Positions 45,225 through 56,167 of a DNA stretch of 64,000 bases are shown here, piece after piece. The position numbers and the translations under genes are program-made. Source of the DNA: Nitrospinaceae bacterium. Lineage in GTDB: Bacteria; Nitrospinota; Nitrospinia; Nitrospinales; Nitrospinaceae. Each line of letters starts with the position of its first letter. The first letter of the stretch is position 1. The stretch is taken from assembly GCA_024644405.1 (NCBI GenBank), contig JAHELC010000001.1, positions 258,854 to 322,853 on the forward strand, written 5' to 3'. Under the pieces are notes generated by a model. It was not told the origin of the DNA. It made no database searches and saw nothing but the letters and a program-made list of their open reading frames with translations.

Positions 45225-47744
45225 ATGAATTTCAGAGCACTCTGCATTGCCAAATTTATCGGAGCCCTGGTTCTGTTTCTGGCTATCGCCGGAGCGGTGC
45301 CCTCGCAAGCCGCTGTCACCCAGATCTCGGTCACAGAAGAACTGGTGGCTACTCTGGCCTTGCCGGAAGATAAAATCGATCTGACTGAAACACTCCTCTT
45401 GATCTCGCGCCATTGGGATCCCCGGCTGGACACGGCCCCACTCAAGAAAACGCTGGACCGTTTGACCGAGTCGGCTCGCAGTCAACTCAAGGGTAACCCT
45501 TCCCCGAAACAAACCGTCGAAATTCTGCGCAAGGTCATCCATGAGGAGGGACGGTACCGTTACACCGAGGCGTTGGACCCGGCGGGCATGCCGGTCAACC
45601 CTGCCGAATTGTTTCTGCATGGGCTGTTGCAGACTCATCGGGGGTATTGCATGAACCTGTCCCTGTTGTATCTCATTCTCGGGGAGCGGTTGAACCTGCC
45701 GCTGGTCGGGGTGCCCCTGCCCAATCATTTTTTCGTGCGCTACGACTCGCCGGAGTACCGGGTGAACATCGAAGCGACCGAGGGAGGAGCGGCATTCCCC
45801 GATTCGTTTTACGAACAACGGTTTGGTGTGGCGAAAAGTTCAAAATATTTCCTGACCAACCTCGGCAAGAAACAAACGCTGGGAGCCTATTTTTCCAATG
45901 TCGGGCTGGTGATGTACCGCGCCGCCAAACCCCAGATCGCCATCTTTTATCTGGAACAATCCGCCAGCATCAACCCGCAATCCATCGACGCGCTCAACAA
46001 CCTGGGCAACATTTATTCAGAACTCAAACAACACGATCAATCGATCCGCGCTTACGAGCGGGCCTTGAACGCCGATCCGGGAAATTTTTCCACATTGTTC
46101 AACCTGGGGCTGGCCTATATGGAAACGGATACGCTTGAAAAAGCCGAGGAGGTGTTTCTGCAGGCGGCCCAGATCAATCCCCGGTATCTCCAGGCACATG
46201 AAATGCTGACGCGCATTTACCTGAGACAGAAAAAGTTCGCGAGCGCACTGCTTCATTTGAAACTCATGAAACGCCTGCAACCGGGACAGCTGCAGACTGA
46301 ATTGAATATCGGCACGGTACTCCTGGAAATGGGTCAGGCGGAACTGTCCCTGAAATACTTTGAAGGTTTGCAAAGCCGCTACCCGCAGGCGATAGAGGTC
46401 AACCAACGCATGGCGGAGGTGTACTACCGGCAGAAGGAATACAACAAAGCCATCGTTCAATATGAGTTCGTCATCAAGCGAGCGCCCCGGTTCATTGAAA
46501 ACTACATCCAGCTGGGATGGATTCATTTCCAGACGGGAAGCGTTGCGAAAGCGATTGAAGTCACCCAACAGGGACTGCGGGCCAGCCCACGGACCAACCG
46601 GTTCACCACTCTGGCCTACATGAATCTGGGGTTTTATCACGTGCTCGAAAAAAAATTCGATGCCGCCGAGAAGTGGTACCAGAAAGCGCTCGACGCCGAT
46701 GACCCGAAAGCGGTCGATGCAATGGTCGAGGATTTGAGCGGCGCCTTCAAAAATTACCCCGGCATTCCTGAAATGAATTACTTCGGCGGATGGATTTTGT
46801 TCCAGGGCAACCAGAAGGACAAGGCCCGGCAATGGCTCAACCGTTTCCTGGCGCACAGCCCCAAAGGCCCGTTCGCCGAAAAAGCACGGAGCTTGCTGTC
46901 CAAGGTTGCGCTTTCGGTGCCGGAAGACATGATCCTGATTCCCAAGGGATTTTTCATCATGGGGGCCAATGGGCACGGGGATGACGAAGCTCCGGAGCAC
47001 AAGGTCTACCTGGACGCCTACTTCATCGACAAATATGAAGTGACGGCGGCTCAGTTCGCCGCGTTTTTAAACGATGTCAAAACCTTCAAGGAATTTTACA
47101 AGGACAGCAAATTCGGCATGCTGGTTCTGGAAAAGGATTTCAGGCCGCGCAAAGGATTCGAGTCCTATCCCATCAACAACGTGACCTGGTTCGGGGCGGC
47201 GGCCTTTTGCAAATGGAAGCACAAGCGCCTGCCCACCGAAGCGGAATGGGAAAAAGCCGCGCGTGGAACCGGAGGTAGTTTCTTCCCCTGGGGAAACGAT
47301 CCGATCAGCCCTCAAAAAGCCCGGTATCGGCAGGACTGGACCGAGGAGATCGCCCACCGCGTCATGGTTCCCGTCGATTCGATGCCGGATGGCAAGAGCT
47401 CATTCGGACTGTTTCACATGCTGGGAAATGTCAAAGAATGGGTGGACGACTGGTATGATCGGGAGTATTATAATGAAGAAAATCACAACTTAAATCCTAA
47501 GGGACAGATCGGGGGGGAATTCAAGGTCCTCAAAGGCGGTTCGTGGAGAGACCTCAGGTCCTTTGTCTACGCCTCTTTCCGGAACAACAGTTACCCGAAT
47601 ACGGCGCTGGACGATTACGGGTTCCGGTGTGCTCAGGACGGTCCGGAAGGTTCCGCCCCCAAGCGGCTGACCTCTCTGGAACATTTATTCATTCCGGTGC
47701 GGCTGGAACAGAAGTCTCAGGAAGGCTCAGGGCACAACCCATGA
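45225..47744 (+). CDS. Exported fusion: transglutaminase-like + TPR + FGE/sulfatase-modifying-factor domain
   Basis: 839 residues in order: signal peptide (1-29, cut near SQAA); a SirB1-type transglutaminase-like domain at about 95-200 (LLQTHRGYCMNLSLLYLILG, PLVGVPLPNHFFVRYDS) with candidate Cys and His; about eight TPR units at 220-560 (ALNNLGNIYSELKQHDQSIR, YIQLGWIHFQTGSVAKAIEV); and a C-terminal FGE-like domain from about 565 (MILIPKGFFIMGANG, DKYEVTAAQFAAFL, NVTWFGAAAFCKWKHKRLPT, EAEWEKAARG, GNVKEWVDDWYD, VLKGGSWRD). The usual Cys near the GGSW strand is replaced (VYASFR), so formylglycine-generating activity is doubtful. I know no standard name for this combination. Confidence 0.82.
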   Translation: MNFRALCIAKFIGALVLFLAIAGAVPSQAAVTQISVTEELVATLALPEDKIDLTETLLLISRHWDPRLDTAPLKKTLDRLTESARSQLKGNPSPKQTVEILRKVIHEEGRYRYTEALDPAGMPVNPAELFLHGLLQTHRGYCMNLSLLYLILGERLNLPLVGVPLPNHFFVRYDSPEYRVNIEATEGGAAFPDSFYEQRFGVAKSSKYFLTNLGKKQTLGAYFSNVGLVMYRAAKPQIAIFYLEQSASINPQSIDALNNLGNIYSELKQHDQSIRAYERALNADPGNFSTLFNLGLAYMETDTLEKAEEVFLQAAQINPRYLQAHEMLTRIYLRQKKFASALLHLKLMKRLQPGQLQTELNIGTVLLEMGQAELSLKYFEGLQSRYPQAIEVNQRMAEVYYRQKEYNKAIVQYEFVIKRAPRFIENYIQLGWIHFQTGSVAKAIEVTQQGLRASPRTNRFTTLAYMNLGFYHVLEKKFDAAEKWYQKALDADDPKAVDAMVEDLSGAFKNYPGIPEMNYFGGWILFQGNQKDKARQWLNRFLAHSPKGPFAEKARSLLSKVALSVPEDMILIPKGFFIMGANGHGDDEAPEHKVYLDAYFIDKYEVTAAQFAAFLNDVKTFKEFYKDSKFGMLVLEKDFRPRKGFESYPINNVTWFGAAAFCKWKHKRLPTEAEWEKAARGTGGSFFPWGNDPISPQKARYRQDWTEEIAHRVMVPVDSMPDGKSSFGLFHMLGNVKEWVDDWYDREYYNEENHNLNPKGQIGGEFKVLKGGSWRDLRSFVYASFRNNSYPNTALDDYGFRCAQDGPEGSAPKRLTSLEHLFIPVRLEQKSQEGSGHNP

Positions 47745-48714: not shown

Positions 48715-49083
48715 TTATTTGTTTTTGTTTTGTGCCCGGAATTTCTTCAGGGCCTTGATCAATTCCATCTGGGACACCCAACCCTGTGACACCAGAATCT
48801 CCCCCAGCAGGCGGTTGGTGTGCGTTTGCCGCTCCAGCAACGTCTCCACCTGCTCCTGGCTCAGGTATTCCAGCTCCACGGCCAGCTTTCCGAAACTTTT
48901 GTCTCTTTCCTCCGGCTTCCTCTGGCGGGATAGAATCCGGAACAACTGTTTGTTGTCGATCAATCCTTTTTGCAACGCCAACTGTCCCAGCGGCACCCGG
49001 TCGGTTTTTTGGATTTCCAGCGCACGGGTCAGGTCTTTTTCCCGGATGATATTCTGCTCTACGAGATACTCACCAAAAATCAC
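48715..49083 (-). CDS. Tandem MshEN/GSPII_E_N-like domain protein
   Basis: 122 residues (GTG start at 49083; GGAGG 10 bases upstream) made almost entirely of four 23-24-residue motifs: FGEYLVEQNIIREKDLTRAL (3-25), PLGQLALQKGLIDNKQLFRI (31-54), FGKLAVELEYLSQEQVETLL (64-86) and LLGEILVSQGWVSQMELIKA (91-114). Motifs 1-2 and 3-4 are each separated by five residues (KTDRV, THTNR), the spacing of MshEN c-di-GMP-binding domains. The Arg normally before LG is not conserved in place, so ligand binding is uncertain. It starts 15 bases after the cyclase stop and is probably co-translated with it. Confidence 0.68.
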   Translation of the reverse strand: MIFGEYLVEQNIIREKDLTRALEIQKTDRVPLGQLALQKGLIDNKQLFRILSRQRKPEERDKSFGKLAVELEYLSQEQVETLLERQTHTNRLLGEILVSQGWVSQMELIKALKKFRAQNKNK

Positions 49084-49098
49084 AGACCGAATTCCTCC

Positions 49099-51330
49099 CT
49101 ACTTGGTACGCATGGCAAAAACACCGTCCCAATCCGGGGGCGGCGAATGATACTGAAACGTGATACACCGCTCGAAATAAGTCAGCGACGGGCCGTCATC
49201 TTCGTACAGATTCAACGCATTTTCAAAACAGGTGATGCCCTCCTCCCACCGCTGATTTTTATAATGGCCCAGACCCTCCTGGAAATGGGGAAGAATCAGG
49301 CGGATGTGATCCTCCATCTCGCCTTTGCGCCCGAGCAGTTCGTAAATTTTGATCGGCTCCTGTTTGCCGACCACACGGATGGAATCCAACTCGCGCACCT
49401 CAATATCGTTCTTCGCCAACTCGTAGGTAAATTCGCTGAGTATGGTGTGCGTCTGGTATTGTTTGTTGGCACCTTCGAGCCGCGCCGCCACGTTTACCGG
49501 GTCGCCGATCATGGTGTAATCGAACCGGTTCTCGGAACCCATGTTGCCCACCGTCACCTCTCCGGTATTGATGCCGATGCGCATAAACAATTCATGCCGG
49601 CCTTTCCTTTTCCAGCTGTTCCGCAACTGGGCCAGCCGTTTCTGCATATCCAGCGCGGCGTAACAGGTTCGGGTGGCGTGATCTTTAAAATCGATGGGCG
49701 CACCAAAAAATGCGATGATGGCGTCGCCTTCAAATTTGTCGACCGTGCCCTCATATTGCATGACAATGTCTGTCATCTCGGTCAGATATTCGTTCAACAA
49801 AATTACCAGTTCCCCGGCGGTCAGCTGTTCAGAGATCGAGGAGAAATTCGCCAGGTCTGAGAAAAAAGCCGTTAATACCTTATCCTCCCCTCCCAGGTTC
49901 AATAGCTTGGGGTTTTCCACCAACTGGTCCACCACCGCCGGCGCCAGGTACTGGCTGAATGCGTTCTTGATAAACCGCTTTTCCCGTTCTTCAAATGTGA
50001 AGCGGTACAACGTAATTCCAAAATACACCAAAAATTGGGACAACACGGGGGACACCGTATGCACCCACAATCCCAGCCGGGTGAACAGCAGGTAATCGCA
50101 GATCAGGTACCCCCCCACGCCCACCACCAGCAGGACGGCGGTGCCGACGGCTTTGAAGTATAGGGCCACCAAACCCAACAAAATACCGGTCACCAGAATC
50201 ATCGTCATATCCAGAACCGGGACCCAGGACGGGCGCTCGAGATAATCCTGTTGAAGGATGTTTTCAATCACATTGGCGTGCACCTCCACCCCGGGATAAA
50301 GGGGACCATAGGGGGTGGTGTGCAAATCATGCAGGGCGGCGGCGCTGGCACCGACCAGGACGATTTTATCTTTCAACTGGACCGGCCCGACCGTTCCATC
50401 GATGACATCGGAGGCGGATAAATAAGTAAACGTCTGTTTCGGTCCGTAATAATTGACCAGAAAATCCCCTTCCTCCGTCACCGGAATCGGGGAATCCCCC
50501 AACCGTATTTCCCCCACGCGGTCAGGGAAGATGCGAACCACGGCACTCAGCTGGGTGGCCTCCCGCAACAATTGCAGACTGAACGGCGGAAACACTGCCT
50601 CTTTATGAACGCGCACCATGGGCATGAAGCGGATGACCCCGTCCCTCTCCGGCGGAAACGAAACGTAACCCGCGCTGTTGGCGGCATCCATCAACGAAGG
50701 CAGACTGAGTCCTACCGCATAAATGGGTTGTAAAAAATCCGGGATGATTGAGTGATCGCTGGACTGCACCATCGAGTACTGGGAAAAGTCCAACAGTTCA
50801 AATTCCTTAGGCCCCATCATCGCCGCTGAATCTTTAGCCGCCTGTTCCGCGGTGGCGTACACAAAATATCCCAGCACCGTCCGCTCCGACCGGCGAATCG
50901 ACTTGGCGAATTGGGCATCCGAATCTCCTACTGCATCCAGCCAATTCGTCAGTTTTTCCCTGTTCAAACCGGAAAGATCTCGCTTGGCAATTTCATGTTT
51001 AACCTGATCGAGGGAAACGGAGGTTTCCCTTTCGGGAAACAAAAAGTCCAATCCGATCACCGCCGCACCGGATTCCGTCAACTTGTCCACCAGCTTCGCC
51101 AAGCGGGCGCGCGGCCAGGGCCAGCGGCCTTCCCGTTTCAGGCTGGGTTCATCGATGGCGACGATCACCACCTGATCCGAAACCGGCCGTGGATCGCGCA
51201 GGGACATTTTAAAATCGTAGGCCTTGGACTCCAGAAGTTCTAAAAATGGAAGCTTGAGGGAATAAACATAAAGGGAAAGCAGGGTGATCAACACCGAGAC
51301 TGTAAAGGCGTTCAGCCAGCGAATTTTCAT
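49099..51330 (-). CDS. CHASE2-domain class III adenylate cyclase
   Basis: 743 residues: membrane helix at about 7-26; extracytoplasmic CHASE2 domain at about 30-345 (VVIVAIDEPSLKREGRWPWP ... VLVGASAAALHDLHTTPYGP); three membrane helices (about 365-445); then a class III cyclase domain (AFFSDLANFSSISEQL, TVDKFEGDAIIAFFGAP, INTGEVTVGNMGSENRFDYT, MIGDPVNVAARLEG). Both metal Asp residues, the Lys of VDKF and Asp of RFDYT for adenine, and the NVAARLE Arg are present, so adenylate cyclase activity is predicted. The C-terminal helical tail with Cys and WDGV is common in this class. It should turn a periplasmic signal into cAMP. Confidence 0.9.
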   Translation of the reverse strand: MKIRWLNAFTVSVLITLLSLYVYSLKLPFLELLESKAYDFKMSLRDPRPVSDQVVIVAIDEPSLKREGRWPWPRARLAKLVDKLTESGAAVIGLDFLFPERETSVSLDQVKHEIAKRDLSGLNREKLTNWLDAVGDSDAQFAKSIRRSERTVLGYFVYATAEQAAKDSAAMMGPKEFELLDFSQYSMVQSSDHSIIPDFLQPIYAVGLSLPSLMDAANSAGYVSFPPERDGVIRFMPMVRVHKEAVFPPFSLQLLREATQLSAVVRIFPDRVGEIRLGDSPIPVTEEGDFLVNYYGPKQTFTYLSASDVIDGTVGPVQLKDKIVLVGASAAALHDLHTTPYGPLYPGVEVHANVIENILQQDYLERPSWVPVLDMTMILVTGILLGLVALYFKAVGTAVLLVVGVGGYLICDYLLFTRLGLWVHTVSPVLSQFLVYFGITLYRFTFEEREKRFIKNAFSQYLAPAVVDQLVENPKLLNLGGEDKVLTAFFSDLANFSSISEQLTAGELVILLNEYLTEMTDIVMQYEGTVDKFEGDAIIAFFGAPIDFKDHATRTCYAALDMQKRLAQLRNSWKRKGRHELFMRIGINTGEVTVGNMGSENRFDYTMIGDPVNVAARLEGANKQYQTHTILSEFTYELAKNDIEVRELDSIRVVGKQEPIKIYELLGRKGEMEDHIRLILPHFQEGLGHYKNQRWEEGITCFENALNLYEDDGPSLTYFERCITFQYHSPPPDWDGVFAMRTK

Positions 51331-51411
51331 GGGAGGATTTTAACACAAGGGGAATCGACGGGGAAAAGTCAGATAAAAGAATATCGGTCAATCGGATTCG
51401 ATGATTTTTAA

Positions 51412-53004
51412 TCAACAGCCGCCGGCACCACCGTTTTCGAAAAATTCAGTGAGAAAGGCACTCAAGGATCCCTGCTGGACGGAATTGGAGTCGAAGGAAG
51501 GCTGTGGACTGCTGCCCCCTGTCACATTGCCATTCAGGATCAAATTGCGGGTCTCACTGAACGACGACTCCTCGGCGTTGATATTGGGTGCGCTGATATC
51601 AATATCCCGTGCCGACTTGACGACCGCGCCGGAAGCCAGGTTGAAATCGCCTTTGCCGTTTCCCTCGTTATCGGCCTTAGCGATAAAATCACCCTTTGTT
51701 GTGGTGACATCGGCGTTCACGTTGATATCGTTGACAGCCATCAAATTCAAGGCCGGGAAGGCGGAAGCCGTTTGTTCAAAAGTTATGTCCCCCCCTGACA
51801 TCAGGATCACGGTGTCTGTAATTCCATCAGTTTCTTCCTCGGTTATACCTGTAACGTTGATGTTGCCACCCGTCTTGATTTTCAGGTTTTCAGCAGTGAT
51901 ATGCTTGATGTCGTTGGCGCCCACCCCTCTACCGGGATTGTTGCCGGACTTGATTTCCAGATCGCCACCGTTCGCGAGAGTAAAAGCGACGTCGCCTGTG
52001 CCACTGTCCAGATCACCCCTCAGGTCAAGATCCTTAGCCAGGAAATTGATATTACCATTGTTGGTCGACAAAAAATCGTTTGCGGCCACTGCGACTACTT
52101 CTCCGGTGACAAATATATCGGGAGCGTCCAGCGTTCCGGAAAGCTTAACAGTGCCCGGGTTTTTAGCAGAGAGGATGATTTTTCCGCCTTTCTGCTGAAC
52201 TGTTTGGGCTTCGATGAGTCCGGAATGATTGACCACATTGCCGATCACATCGCCGACGGATTTAGACGTCAGTAGAACCTGCCCTTCATTGGCACGAATG
52301 AGCTTGGAATTATTGATCCGGCCATTGAGGACTTTCACATCTGCGTCGGCAACCGCAAAACTGATCAGGCCGTCGCCATTGAAATCCAATGTGGCCATAG
52401 TTCCAGAAGCCAACGCGATGGACCCCAGGTCCGCCACGATAATGGTTCCATTGGTTTCGACTTCCGGAGCCAACAGACCGGCATAGCGGACGGCCTTGAT
52501 GGTCCCTTCATTCATGATTTTAGTGAGGGCTTGATACGGGTCCTGGGAAAACTGATAATTGCCGTTCAGAAAATCCTTGTCTGATATGTTGAGGGTGGTC
52601 GCCAGGAGTCCATGAACATCCACCACAGAGCCCTTGCCGAACAACACTCCGGAGGGGTTGGTCAGAAACACCTGGCCGTTGGCGGAAAGTTTTCCGAGAA
52701 TGATGCTGGGGTCCACGCCGATCACCCGGTTGAGCGCTATGGCACTGGAGTCCGGTTGCTTGAAGGTAACCGATTCCGTCGCACCGATGCTGAAGGACTG
52801 CCAGTTGGTGATCAACTGCTGGCTGTCCTGCTGGACCACCAGATCCTGCTTTGAGGGTTGTTGGATGCTGCCGCTGCCAGCGACAATCTTCCCGTCGCTG
52901 GGCAGGGCGTTCACCCATCCCGGTGCCAGCGCCCATAGGCCCACCAAAAGACTCGCAGCCAGACGGTTCACCCGGTGACTTTGTTTCGGATGGTATTTAC
53001 GCAT
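51412..53004 (-). CDS. TpsA-like exoprotein (filamentous haemagglutinin N-terminal domain)
   Basis: 530 residues. The signal sequence (about 1-33, VNRLAASLLVGLWALAPGWV) precedes a TPS secretion domain with SFSIGATESVTFKQPDSSAI, LGKLSANGQVFLTNPSGVLF, GLLATTLNISDKDF and GSIALASGTMATLDF. A short right-handed beta-helix (runs such as NGGDLEIKSGNN, AVNDINVNADVTT) fills the rest. Compared with FHA-type proteins (over 1000 residues) it is very short. It ends FFENGGAGGC with a terminal Cys. It is 26 bases downstream of the FecR-domain gene and near a TpsB gene, its likely exporter. Confidence 0.86.
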   Translation of the reverse strand: MRKYHPKQSHRVNRLAASLLVGLWALAPGWVNALPSDGKIVAGSGSIQQPSKQDLVVQQDSQQLITNWQSFSIGATESVTFKQPDSSAIALNRVIGVDPSIILGKLSANGQVFLTNPSGVLFGKGSVVDVHGLLATTLNISDKDFLNGNYQFSQDPYQALTKIMNEGTIKAVRYAGLLAPEVETNGTIIVADLGSIALASGTMATLDFNGDGLISFAVADADVKVLNGRINNSKLIRANEGQVLLTSKSVGDVIGNVVNHSGLIEAQTVQQKGGKIILSAKNPGTVKLSGTLDAPDIFVTGEVVAVAANDFLSTNNGNINFLAKDLDLRGDLDSGTGDVAFTLANGGDLEIKSGNNPGRGVGANDIKHITAENLKIKTGGNINVTGITEEETDGITDTVILMSGGDITFEQTASAFPALNLMAVNDINVNADVTTTKGDFIAKADNEGNGKGDFNLASGAVVKSARDIDISAPNINAEESSFSETRNLILNGNVTGGSSPQPSFDSNSVQQGSLSAFLTEFFENGGAGGC

Positions 53005-53030
53005 GATGCACTGTCCCCCTTGACCCTGCC

Positions 53031-53837
53031 TCAGCCTGAGGTGCAGGGATCGGATGAATCTTCCTCGAATAAATCATATTCTTCTTTTAAGGCGTCCGTC
53101 ACAATGGAACCCTGCCGGGGTTTTTCACGATAACGCGAACCCACCCAACCCATGATCACCTGCTGGATCATGTTGCGCTCGGGACCTGCCAAAGCCTCCG
53201 GTTCCGTCGGCGGCTTGCCTTCTTCAATGACCGTTTTCATCATCGGCCCGACCATCACGTCCCCGATCACGGCGGGATCGGCATTGAGCGCCCGGATAAA
53301 ACCGGCCTGATTGGCGACCAGGGTTTTGAGTTGCGAAACGCTCAAATAACCCTGGGTGCCGCGCGCCGCCACATTTGCGGTGGGGGAAAGAATCTTGAAA
53401 TGGGATTTGGGGTGCTTCTGCTCCTTATTGACGATATACATGGAAATGCCGTGGCCGATGCTGATCACACCCTGGCGGAGCTTCTCCTTGGCGTCAAACA
53501 GATAGGACGAAATCGTCATCCGGGAGTTGGGACCCAGGGCCATCAGGCTGGAATCCTCAAATAGAATGCGCAGGCGGCTCTTACGGCCGGTCCGAAACTC
53601 ATCGCTGGCATACACCATTTGCTTGGGTTGCACCTTCTGCCAGGGGTTCAATGCCACCGGAACCACCTGGCCGGGTTGGGCATCGGCGACCGGCACCTCA
53701 CCCCCAGGCAGGTATTCCGCACTTCCAATAATGGCGATAATCCTCCCCACCGGTTTATTATCTGCCCAGGCATTCCCCGGAAGAATCAAAACCGCCACGG
53801 CCACCAAGGCCAGTCCCTTTCCAAAAAGTCTGGTCAT
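53031..53837 (-). CDS. Periplasmic FecR-domain protein
   Basis: 268 residues. Signal peptide to about 25 (GKGLALVAVAVLILPGNAWA), then a FecR domain (VYASDEFRTGRKSRLRILFE, DSSLMALGPNSRMTISSYLF, LRQGVISIGHGISM, KILSPTANVAARGTQGYLSV). Unlike anti-sigma FecR proteins it has no N-terminal cytosolic segment and no membrane helix; it is probably soluble in the periplasm. FecR-only proteins often neighbour CHASE2 cyclases and two-partner-secretion genes, as here. AGGAG precedes the ATG. The C-terminal part (PERNMIQQVIMGWVGSRYRE) is helical. Confidence 0.85.
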   Translation of the reverse strand: MTRLFGKGLALVAVAVLILPGNAWADNKPVGRIIAIIGSAEYLPGGEVPVADAQPGQVVPVALNPWQKVQPKQMVYASDEFRTGRKSRLRILFEDSSLMALGPNSRMTISSYLFDAKEKLRQGVISIGHGISMYIVNKEQKHPKSHFKILSPTANVAARGTQGYLSVSQLKTLVANQAGFIRALNADPAVIGDVMVGPMMKTVIEEGKPPTEPEALAGPERNMIQQVIMGWVGSRYREKPRQGSIVTDALKEEYDLFEEDSSDPCTSG

Positions 53838-53881
53838 TCCTTTACTCCTGCAATTTTCAATATTCCTGCATAGAAGGAAAT

Positions 53882-53887
53882 ATTATA
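53882..53887 (-). promoter_or_regulatory. Candidate -10 box for the fecR-tpsA-cyclase unit
   Basis: Read on the minus strand the sequence is TATAAT, about 45 bases before the FecR ATG. The -35 region is not conserved. The 53838-54055 gap is AT-rich and also holds two short CCC...GGG palindromes near 53940 and 53960. Confidence 0.35.
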
Positions 53888-54055
53888 TGCGTAAATGTAA
53901 ATAAAACCACGAGAAATTGGGAAAATCCAATAAAATACCCCAATAGGGTTGTTTTTATCCCTGTAGGGCTTCAAAAAATGCAATGTTTTTTAGGTATTTC
54001 GGGCAAATCCAGGCAAGACTTGAACCTGAATTAAAAAAAAGATGCGATAGCAGAG

Positions 54056-55807
54056 CTAAAAGGAAATCATGCCATTGAGGTAGAGTGTGCTGGAAGACCC
54101 GTCCGAGGGCTCTGGTCCTCCGAATGCGGGGAATCCGTAGGCAAGAGAAAAGCTGACCGCCGGGTAGTTCGTCCCCAGAGGAGGTATATTCAACCGAAAA
54201 CCAAGCCCCAGACCGTTTAACTCCCGGTCATTCTCACCGGCCTGCCGGTTTTTGACAAATACTTTTCCATGGTCCAGAAAAGCAAAAAGGGACAGCACCT
54301 GGTCAAGCCGTATCGTCCGGGGATTCTTGAGTACGGTCATTTTGAAGGGAAAGGGAATGACCAGTTCCGCGGATATGAAAAATCCATTGTCCCCTGCCGC
54401 TTCCGCCAACGGGTATCCCCGTACCGATCCGAACCCACCGATCGCGAACTGATCCGGCGAAAGCACCCTTTTGGAAGCGACCTGGCCTCTAGACTTCAAC
54501 ATCAAGTAGGTTTTTCCAATGAAAGCGGACTGGAACCGGGTGACATCGAAACTGGAAATCAATGTATCACCCCGGCCTTGAAACCGCGAATTAAGCGGGT
54601 CGGAAACGTCGCTTTCGCTGAAACCCTGTTGCAAGCGTAAATTGTAATACGTGCGGGCACGCAACGGGTCCTTGAAGAAACCCCCAGCCGCGAGATAGGC
54701 ATCCCGCAGCTTGTCATCACTGGAGGGGGACCCGGCAAGGTCGTTTTTAAAATTTCGGATCTCCCCGCCCAGACTCACTTGAAATTCGGAACTGCGCGTC
54801 CGGATCACGGAATGGCTCACGTCCAGGGTTAATATGTTGGCGTCACCGCCGGCGTTGAGTGCCGATAGATTGCCGCCCAGATTGAAGTCGGAGAAAGTGT
54901 AGGACAGAGTGAAGGTGGTGCCATAGTGGCCGATGGGGATCGAATAGGAAGGGTTGATGAACACCTGATCCTCGTTGGACGTGACCCCGCGCACATACAA
55001 GCGGTCCCCCAAGCGCAACAGGCTGCCGGCTTCTCCCGTCAAACCGTACCGTTGCTCCCCGGTAAACCGGGAACCGAAATTATCCGCGTCGAAAGCAACG
55101 CTGTAGGTACGGGATTCCTCAGCCTGCAAGGTCAAGTCGGATGTGCCGAATACCTCCCCCGGTTTCAGGACGGCTTTCACTTTCAATCCCTGGATGGCGT
55201 TCAATCCCAGAAGATATTTTTCCAGGGTGCTTTCCGTGAGAGTCGGGTCCTCCTGGAGCGGCTGTAACCGCGCCAGGATTTCGTCCCGCTTGAATTTCTC
55301 GTTCCCAGCCACTTCAATTTTACCCAACCTGCCTTCCACCACCTGGATGGTTACAAACCCGTTCTCAATTTCCTGCTCCGGAACATAGGCGCGAGTCAGG
55401 ATGTATCCCTCCAGGGCATACAGGGAGGTGATTTCCTGGGCAATGAGGTGGAGGATGCCAAGGGTCACTTCCAACCCGTCCCCCACTTCCAGAATGGGCG
55501 CCAGGGTGGCGTCATCGATCAGCGTGTTGCCGGTCACTTCGATTTTTTTGACGATGAATTTGGGACCCGCCCCCGGGTCGATGATAGTACGGCTGTCCTT
55601 GATGGAAAGCGGCGGGAGTGTTTCTTCAGGAGGTTTGAAATCCGGGCGGGATTGCTCCAGCGCTTTTTGGCCCACGCCGGATTCTCCCGCGGGAGGAACC
55701 GAAACCTGCGCCTGCAGGAGCGAAGGGAACATCAACGCGCTCCCCAGGGAACCAAGAGCAATGATTAGCAAATAGAGTTTGAACGTGGTCCGGTTCGATT
55801 GGATCAT
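54056..55807 (-). CDS. TpsB-family outer membrane transporter (FhaC/ShlB-like)
   Basis: 583 residues. Signal peptide to about 33; a short linker; two POTRA domains at about 85-235 (FIVKKIEVTGNTLIDDATLA, ILTRAYVPEQEIENGFVTIQ, IEVAGNEKFKRDEILARLQP); then a 16-strand barrel with the Omp85-family L6 motif FGSVRGY and a terminal phenylalanine (YLNGMISF). It would export the TpsA-like protein across the outer membrane. It lies 218 bases upstream of the FecR gene on the same strand. In E. coli-type TPS operons TpsB and TpsA are adjacent; here the FecR gene comes between. Confidence 0.9.
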   Translation of the reverse strand: MIQSNRTTFKLYLLIIALGSLGSALMFPSLLQAQVSVPPAGESGVGQKALEQSRPDFKPPEETLPPLSIKDSRTIIDPGAGPKFIVKKIEVTGNTLIDDATLAPILEVGDGLEVTLGILHLIAQEITSLYALEGYILTRAYVPEQEIENGFVTIQVVEGRLGKIEVAGNEKFKRDEILARLQPLQEDPTLTESTLEKYLLGLNAIQGLKVKAVLKPGEVFGTSDLTLQAEESRTYSVAFDADNFGSRFTGEQRYGLTGEAGSLLRLGDRLYVRGVTSNEDQVFINPSYSIPIGHYGTTFTLSYTFSDFNLGGNLSALNAGGDANILTLDVSHSVIRTRSSEFQVSLGGEIRNFKNDLAGSPSSDDKLRDAYLAAGGFFKDPLRARTYYNLRLQQGFSESDVSDPLNSRFQGRGDTLISSFDVTRFQSAFIGKTYLMLKSRGQVASKRVLSPDQFAIGGFGSVRGYPLAEAAGDNGFFISAELVIPFPFKMTVLKNPRTIRLDQVLSLFAFLDHGKVFVKNRQAGENDRELNGLGLGFRLNIPPLGTNYPAVSFSLAYGFPAFGGPEPSDGSSSTLYLNGMISF

Positions 55808-56032: not shown

Positions 56033-56057
56033 GAAAAAAGCGGTCCCGAAGGACCGC
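56033..56057 (-). terminator. Intrinsic terminator with UUCG tetraloop after the collagen-like gene
   Basis: On the minus strand: GCGGTCC-TTCG-GGACCGC followed by TTTTTTC. The stem is perfect and the loop is the very stable UUCG closed by C-G. It separates the collagen-like gene from tpsB. Confidence 0.92.
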
Positions 56058-56167
56058 CGCTGTGTTTCATGTATCGCCCGGCTTTACGAGCAAGATGCGG
56101 ATGAACAATGCATCGGGCAGTACGTTCGCCGGTTTGAAGGATGGGTGACCTCAGCCTGGCCTCATCT

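Follow-up and report, generated by a model that had tools for sequence, protein, structure and literature searches.

Why should the exporter and the exoprotein of a two-partner secretion (TPS) system be encoded in one row with a FecR-domain protein and an adenylate cyclase? The question is raised by a locus spanning positions 48715-55807 on the minus strand of the window, by which we mean the whole stretch of 64,000 nucleotides analysed here, from a Nitrospinaceae MAG of 2.98 Mb (genome G000). The five genes of the locus encode TpsB, a FecR-domain protein, TpsA, a CHASE2 adenylate cyclase and a MshEN-like protein (Table 1), separated by gaps of 218, 26, 81 and 15 bases. This layout and the domain identities had been given in a preliminary description of the DNA, and both were reproduced when the gaps were recomputed and the products matched against Pfam and NCBIfam.

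Table 1. Coordinates of the TPS locus features in the window and of a second FecR-cyclase gene pair in the same genome.
Feature	Position	Strand	Domain match or remark
TpsB outer-membrane transporter, 583 aa, signal peptide, no cysteine	54056..55807	-	PF03865 ShlB, PF08479 POTRA_2
Periplasmic FecR-domain protein, 268 aa, single cysteine C265	53031..53837	-	PF04773
FecR Cys265 codon	53043..53045	-	three residues follow
TpsA exoprotein, 530 aa: signal peptide, TPS domain 47-283, beta-helix, tail helix 514-524, terminal Cys530	51412..53004	-	PF05860, TIGR01901
TpsA Cys530 codon	51415..51417	-	last residue and sole cysteine of TpsA
CHASE2 adenylate cyclase, 743 aa: N-terminal TM, periplasmic CHASE2, TM helices, class IIIb-type cyclase, TPR-like tail	49099..51330	-	PF05226, PF00211
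MshEN-like double-repeat protein, 122 aa, optional member	48715..49083	-	NF053729
Terminator-like hairpin and T-tract between the upstream gene and tpsB	56039..56058	-	8-pair stem, 6 GC, TTTTT; consensus match only
NsrA homologue (FecR, TPR, TonB-receptor-like barrel) and second CHASE2 cyclase	G000 C1:113415-119690 (L013:3416-9691); NsrA homologue L013:3416-6847

The hairpin upstream of tpsB probably bounds the unit on that side, and a promoter scan gave no more matches than shuffled sequence. Convergent to the TPS locus, at window positions 45225-47744, lies a gene for a transglutaminase-like, TPR and FGE-sulfatase fusion protein, which in many Nitrospinota is kept alongside the cyclase, MshEN-like and flavin-reductase genes.

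The window TpsA and TpsB have the make-up of a type Vb system. TpsA contains a signal peptide and a TPS domain (PF05860, 3.7e-36, residues 47-283; TIGR01901, 8.5e-23), TpsB contains POTRA_2 (8.2e-20) and ShlB barrel (4.3e-28) matches, and the two were the sole TPS pair detected in G000 by family search. The AlphaFold2 model of TpsA was confident just for the beta-helix, at about residues 270-495, and displayed at low confidence a short helix (514-524) ahead of the terminal cysteine. A fold search of this model against the PDB gave no significant match (best E 0.43, the HxuA secretion domain), because the N-terminal half was modelled poorly. The FecR protein (PF04773, 6.1e-10) has a signal peptide without any further hydrophobic segment and is therefore predicted to be soluble in the periplasm, where it had been placed before, and not to be an anti-sigma FecR; its structure prediction was unusable (pLDDT 30). 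Cell-surface signalling through an anti-sigma FecR was rejected, since the protein has no transmembrane part and no sigma factor was found among the scanned neighbours.

The conserved-synteny check suggested in the preliminary description was run and came out positive. Homologues of the cyclase were collected, and all TPS, ShlB, FecR and CHASE2 matches in 77 Nitrospinota genomes were joined by their coordinates. The same-strand order TpsB-FecR-TpsA-CHASE2 recurred in 12 complete loci of 10 genomes, representing four genera and three families of the phylum. Eight additional loci, several of which are truncated at a contig end, displayed TpsB-FecR-TpsA, and plain TpsB-TpsA without FecR was found at 39 loci. 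Judged by this distribution, TpsB-FecR-TpsA-cyclase is an old and selected arrangement. Within the genus to which the window belongs, 190-221 bases separate the TpsB and FecR genes; in genus g2 the distance is -1 to 15 bases, which fits co-transcription there.

At six loci with a complete TpsA (four in G013 and one each in G050 and G029), cysteine-tailed FecR and TpsA were followed by other genes and had no adjoining cyclase, and in G029, which is 91% complete, a CHASE2 protein was not found. The FecR-TpsA pair is therefore the core of the set, which the cyclase often joins without being obligatory. Between FecR and TpsA of G029 lies an additional gene of 334 aa (L126:5159-6163). G013 (L115-L118) contains about ten TPS-domain matches over the cut-off, some in very long open frames (5243 and 8152 aa); at two of its loci a single FecR gene precedes a tandem of two cysteine-tailed TpsA genes. 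The FecR subfamily was also searched outside the phylum, in 387 relatives (77 Nitrospinota, the rest from other phyla) as well as in 395 genomes from a large phylum and 18 from a second one. Among the best matches, those whose neighbourhood was inspected had neither a tail cysteine nor TPS genes nearby, in a sample where TPS-rich phyla are thinly represented. Among plasmids the window FecR had no match, and the FecR of locus L064 had weak FecR matches, mainly in Rhizobiaceae.

The cyclase matched CHASE2 (PF05226, 9.8e-67) and the class III cyclase family (PF00211, 1.7e-22), and alignment to CyaB and other cyclase structures located all six class III adenylyl cyclase residues: the metal aspartates D492 and D536, a Lys/Thr pair (K532 and T606) of the kind typical for class IIIb enzymes, and the Asn/Arg pair N613 and R617. 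The earlier prediction that the enzyme makes cAMP agrees with this intact set. All TPS-linked cyclases in a tree of 36 fell into one fully supported clade, whose other members are four cyclases without TPS linkage and two from contig edges; TPS linkage was strongly clustered on the tree (0 of 500 shuffles as low). That FecR proteins neighbour CHASE2 cyclases, as stated in the preliminary description, proved to be common: a FecR gene was located within 8 kb of 53 of the 98 CHASE2 proteins in Nitrospinota, and FecR-CHASE2 pairs recur in other phyla. Nine matches to cNMP-binding domains were seen in G000, although some lie in short frames, and a cAMP effector may therefore be available. The preliminary description had interpreted the locus as a surface exoprotein tied to cyclic nucleotides; its cAMP arrangement is well supported and the function plausible, but the tie to a cyclase is not obligatory, as the six loci without an adjoining cyclase, that of G029 among them, demonstrate.

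The MshEN-like gene had been counted as a partner in the same set, which raises c-di-GMP as a possible second signal. Its 122-aa product matched the NCBIfam c-di-GMP_motif NF053729 above the cut-off in two stretches (4.6e-27), and it shares with MshEN c-di-GMP-binding proteins a pair of 53-residue repeats that keep much of the LxxxLxxQ and glycine pattern. It differs from MshEN domain proteins in having no ATPase or glycosyltransferase partner domain. The sequence was also read against the 24-residue MshEN motif RLGxx(L/V/I)2xxG(L/V/I)2xxxxLxxxLxxQ, present twice in such domains, and all four half-motifs lacked the Arg of RLG; a report on MshE names Arg9 and Gln32 as residues that matter for binding (PMC5013675). 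The gene was missing from the TPS-cyclase loci L058, L059 and L062-L064 and was found beside the cyclase in L056, where TPS genes were not found, and therefore belongs to the cyclase neighbourhood and not to the core. With the gene optional and the Arg missing, the link to c-di-GMP is weak and c-di-GMP as a core signal was dropped.

What joins the exoprotein to the FecR protein may be read from their last residues, which the preliminary description had missed. All 18 complete FecR-linked TpsA proteins, ranging from 530 to 3785 aa, carry an unpaired cysteine at the end, as the last residue in 17 and the next-to-last in one. The number of cysteines beyond residue 60 is odd in every one of them, the remaining mature cysteines being arranged in pairs 4-7 residues apart. 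Six C-terminal TpsA pieces beside cyclases also end in cysteine, one being the second piece of TpsA from G027, where the gene is frameshifted. At the loci without FecR, a tail cysteine was present in none of the 16 complete TpsA, and cysteine counts were even in 15 of these. In each of the 25 complete FecR proteins from TPS loci a cysteine lies 1-6 residues before the end, and in most it is the only one after the signal peptide. This cysteine was absent from the other Nitrospinota FecR (0 of 19). About 40 loci that are not TPS-linked, almost all in other phyla, also yielded complete FecR proteins, and these had no cysteine in their last 18 residues. Across 20 aligned TPS-linked FecR, C265 is invariant and is the sole invariant residue behind a linker which is acidic or of low complexity, varies widely in length and is unalignable.

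The lone terminal cysteines segregate with FecR-TPS linkage. The Fisher p values of 4e-9 for the TpsA tail and 7e-13 for the FecR tail make this look more certain than it is, since they treat related proteins as independent and the pattern had been noticed before the counting. It holds for the complete TpsA of six genera and the complete FecR of nine, with the frameshifted G027 gene as the only exception. That gene (L054:11508-14905) consists of two overlapping frames, by a frameshift or an assembly error, and only the second piece is terminated by cysteine. TpsB has no cysteine beyond the N-terminal 60 residues, nor has the periplasmic CHASE2 region of the cyclase any, and no cysteine is conserved in either. 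This leaves TpsA and FecR as the sole exported products of the locus that carry an unpaired cysteine. A literature search with little coverage of subscription journals yielded no account of loci that combine FecR, TPS and CHASE2 genes, nor of a cysteine-tailed TpsA paired with a FecR protein.

Cysteines are scarce in TPS proteins and mostly lie only a few residues apart (PMC8151025, PMC5422565), and HMW1 and HxuA of Haemophilus influenzae are surface-anchored by a C-terminal disulfide in the part retained in the periplasm (PMC5422565, PMC8151025). The window TpsA resembles these proteins in its export by TpsB, its C-terminal cysteine and the predicted periplasmic retention of its tail. However, the disulfide of HMW1 and HxuA lies within TpsA (PMC5422565), whereas the window TpsA offers a single cysteine, for which FecR would supply the counterpart. 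An intramolecular two-cysteine anchor was found neither there nor in any other complete FecR-linked TpsA, the terminal cysteine being unpaired in all. TpsA proteins with two cysteines near the end do occur in other phyla, at 11 and 3 residues from the end in L205 and at 17 and 5 in L213 and L214, as would be expected of a classical one-chain anchor. Since TpsA has no second cysteine and its neighbouring periplasmic partner has exactly one, a mixed disulfide is the simplest reading, and we infer an HMW1-type periplasmic anchor split over two proteins, TpsA and FecR.

The gene set, its conserved order, the intact cyclase residues and the lone terminal cysteines are seen directly in the genomes, and a mechanism for them may be depicted as follows: TpsB would export the beta-helix of TpsA, while the last residues of TpsA (the short helix, a flexible linker and the terminal cysteine) would remain in the periplasm. 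There, the terminal cysteine and the lone near-terminal cysteine on the flexible FecR tail would form a disulfide. This bond would hold TpsA in its pore and let FecR report whether TpsA is present, loaded or engaged. FecR would in turn contact the periplasmic CHASE2 domain of the co-encoded cyclase and set its cAMP output. The terminal cysteines thus suggest a physical form for the link between surface protein and cyclase. A three-partner secretion system coupled in this manner, through a TpsA-FecR disulfide and a FecR report, to an envelope-sensing cyclase is a reading that we hold to have about an even chance of being correct. The fuller version, a covalent trans-envelope tether in which the last-residue disulfide to a cyclase-gating FecR would turn the mechanical or binding state of a TPS protein into cAMP, is offered tentatively and is on balance doubtful.

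The NsrA-CyaK system of Sinorhizobium meliloti is alike in that a FecR domain, an outer-membrane barrel and a CHASE2 class III cyclase are encoded together, the two cyclases being 30% identical over most of their length. NsrA is encoded directly upstream of CyaK and has FecR and TPR matches in Pfam; its outer-membrane barrel is described in the literature, and NsrA is required for perceiving the signal that leads to cAMP (PMC7529298, PMC13001267). Whereas NsrA holds FecR, TPRs and barrel in one protein, the window has TpsB, FecR and TpsA as three, with a barrel that exports a protein. No single FecR-TPR-barrel receptor was found at the window locus. An NsrA homologue (1143 aa; 1e-28) was detected elsewhere in G000, on C1, with a second cyclase oriented divergently from it and 72% identical to the window cyclase, likely an NsrA-CyaK type system in a Nitrospinota bacterium. 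With one such cyclase beside an NsrA homologue and the other linked to TPS genes, one cyclase type occurs with a one-piece or a three-piece set, and by this analogy we read TpsB-FecR-TpsA as a split, secreted-protein version of an NsrA-like receptor.

Two other systems share parts of the arrangement. The BiofilmReg operon of Burkholderia has a periplasmic LysM-FecR protein directly beside a CHASE2 sensor (PMC5192318), but the output is a histidine kinase and TPS genes are absent. In PUMA3 of Pseudomonas aeruginosa, a sigma-factor regulator with a FecR-like function is located near the TPS genes PA0690/PA0692 that the system controls (PMC2729926), but the mechanism is of the sigma/anti-sigma kind, without a cyclase and with transcriptional control only. 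On an Ensifer plasmid (L254, 2366-10336), FecR-domain and TPR genes are flanked by a cyclase gene on one side and an NHLP-type bacteriocin export system on the other, possibly another coupling of export with a FecR-cyclase pair.

The strongest rival to a signalling disulfide retains the bond and drops the signal: FecR would be a third partner whose covalent bond keeps TpsA in the envelope, while the cyclase next door would sense something else. The six loci with cysteine-tailed FecR-TpsA and no adjoining cyclase, among them that of G029, in which no CHASE2 protein was found, agree with such a role, and HMW1-type anchoring works without signalling (PMC5422565). We nevertheless consider it unlikely, given how often FecR genes accompany CHASE2 genes in Nitrospinota and beyond, and that NsrA, which has a FecR domain, acts upstream of the CHASE2 cyclase CyaK (PMC7529298). 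The cysteines might instead form homodimers, TpsA-TpsA at the surface and FecR-FecR in the periplasm, with TpsA and FecR touching just weakly. One free cysteine per protein makes symmetric bonds chemically possible, but the tail cysteine of TpsA is found only beside a gene for a cysteine-tailed FecR, and vice versa, which independent dimerisation does not predict, and this reading is quite unlikely.

The direction of control could also be reversed. Operons often contain a regulator of their own expression, and the cyclase might sense an envelope signal and, by cAMP and a Crp-type protein, set the expression of the TPS genes, the proteins having no interaction; the cNMP-binding domain matches of G000 would supply candidates. 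The FecR gene in the middle and the cysteine pair are left unexplained by such a circuit, which we hold to be very unlikely. That the genes are unrelated neighbours, kept by chance or by general genome conservation, is extremely improbable: a wider region (flavin reductase, TPR-FGE protein and a radical SAM gene) is indeed also conserved in genus g1, but in g2 and the other families the flanks differ while TpsB-FecR-TpsA-cyclase persists, and a second copy of the set is present in G002 and G010.

By their co-segregation, the terminal cysteines turn a suggestive list of genes into the specific mechanism of a TpsA-FecR disulfide that would report to the cyclase. If so, the loci would represent a TPS class in which the third partner is genetically encoded and two proteins make up the anchor. 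They would also offer a concrete answer to how a CHASE2 cyclase, the inputs of which are mostly unknown, learns of the cell surface. The phylum Nitrospinota includes the main marine nitrite oxidisers, and surface signalling is almost unstudied in it. Should the covalent tether prove true, the locus would be, to our knowledge, the first two-partner secretion system acting as a receptor for its own producer.
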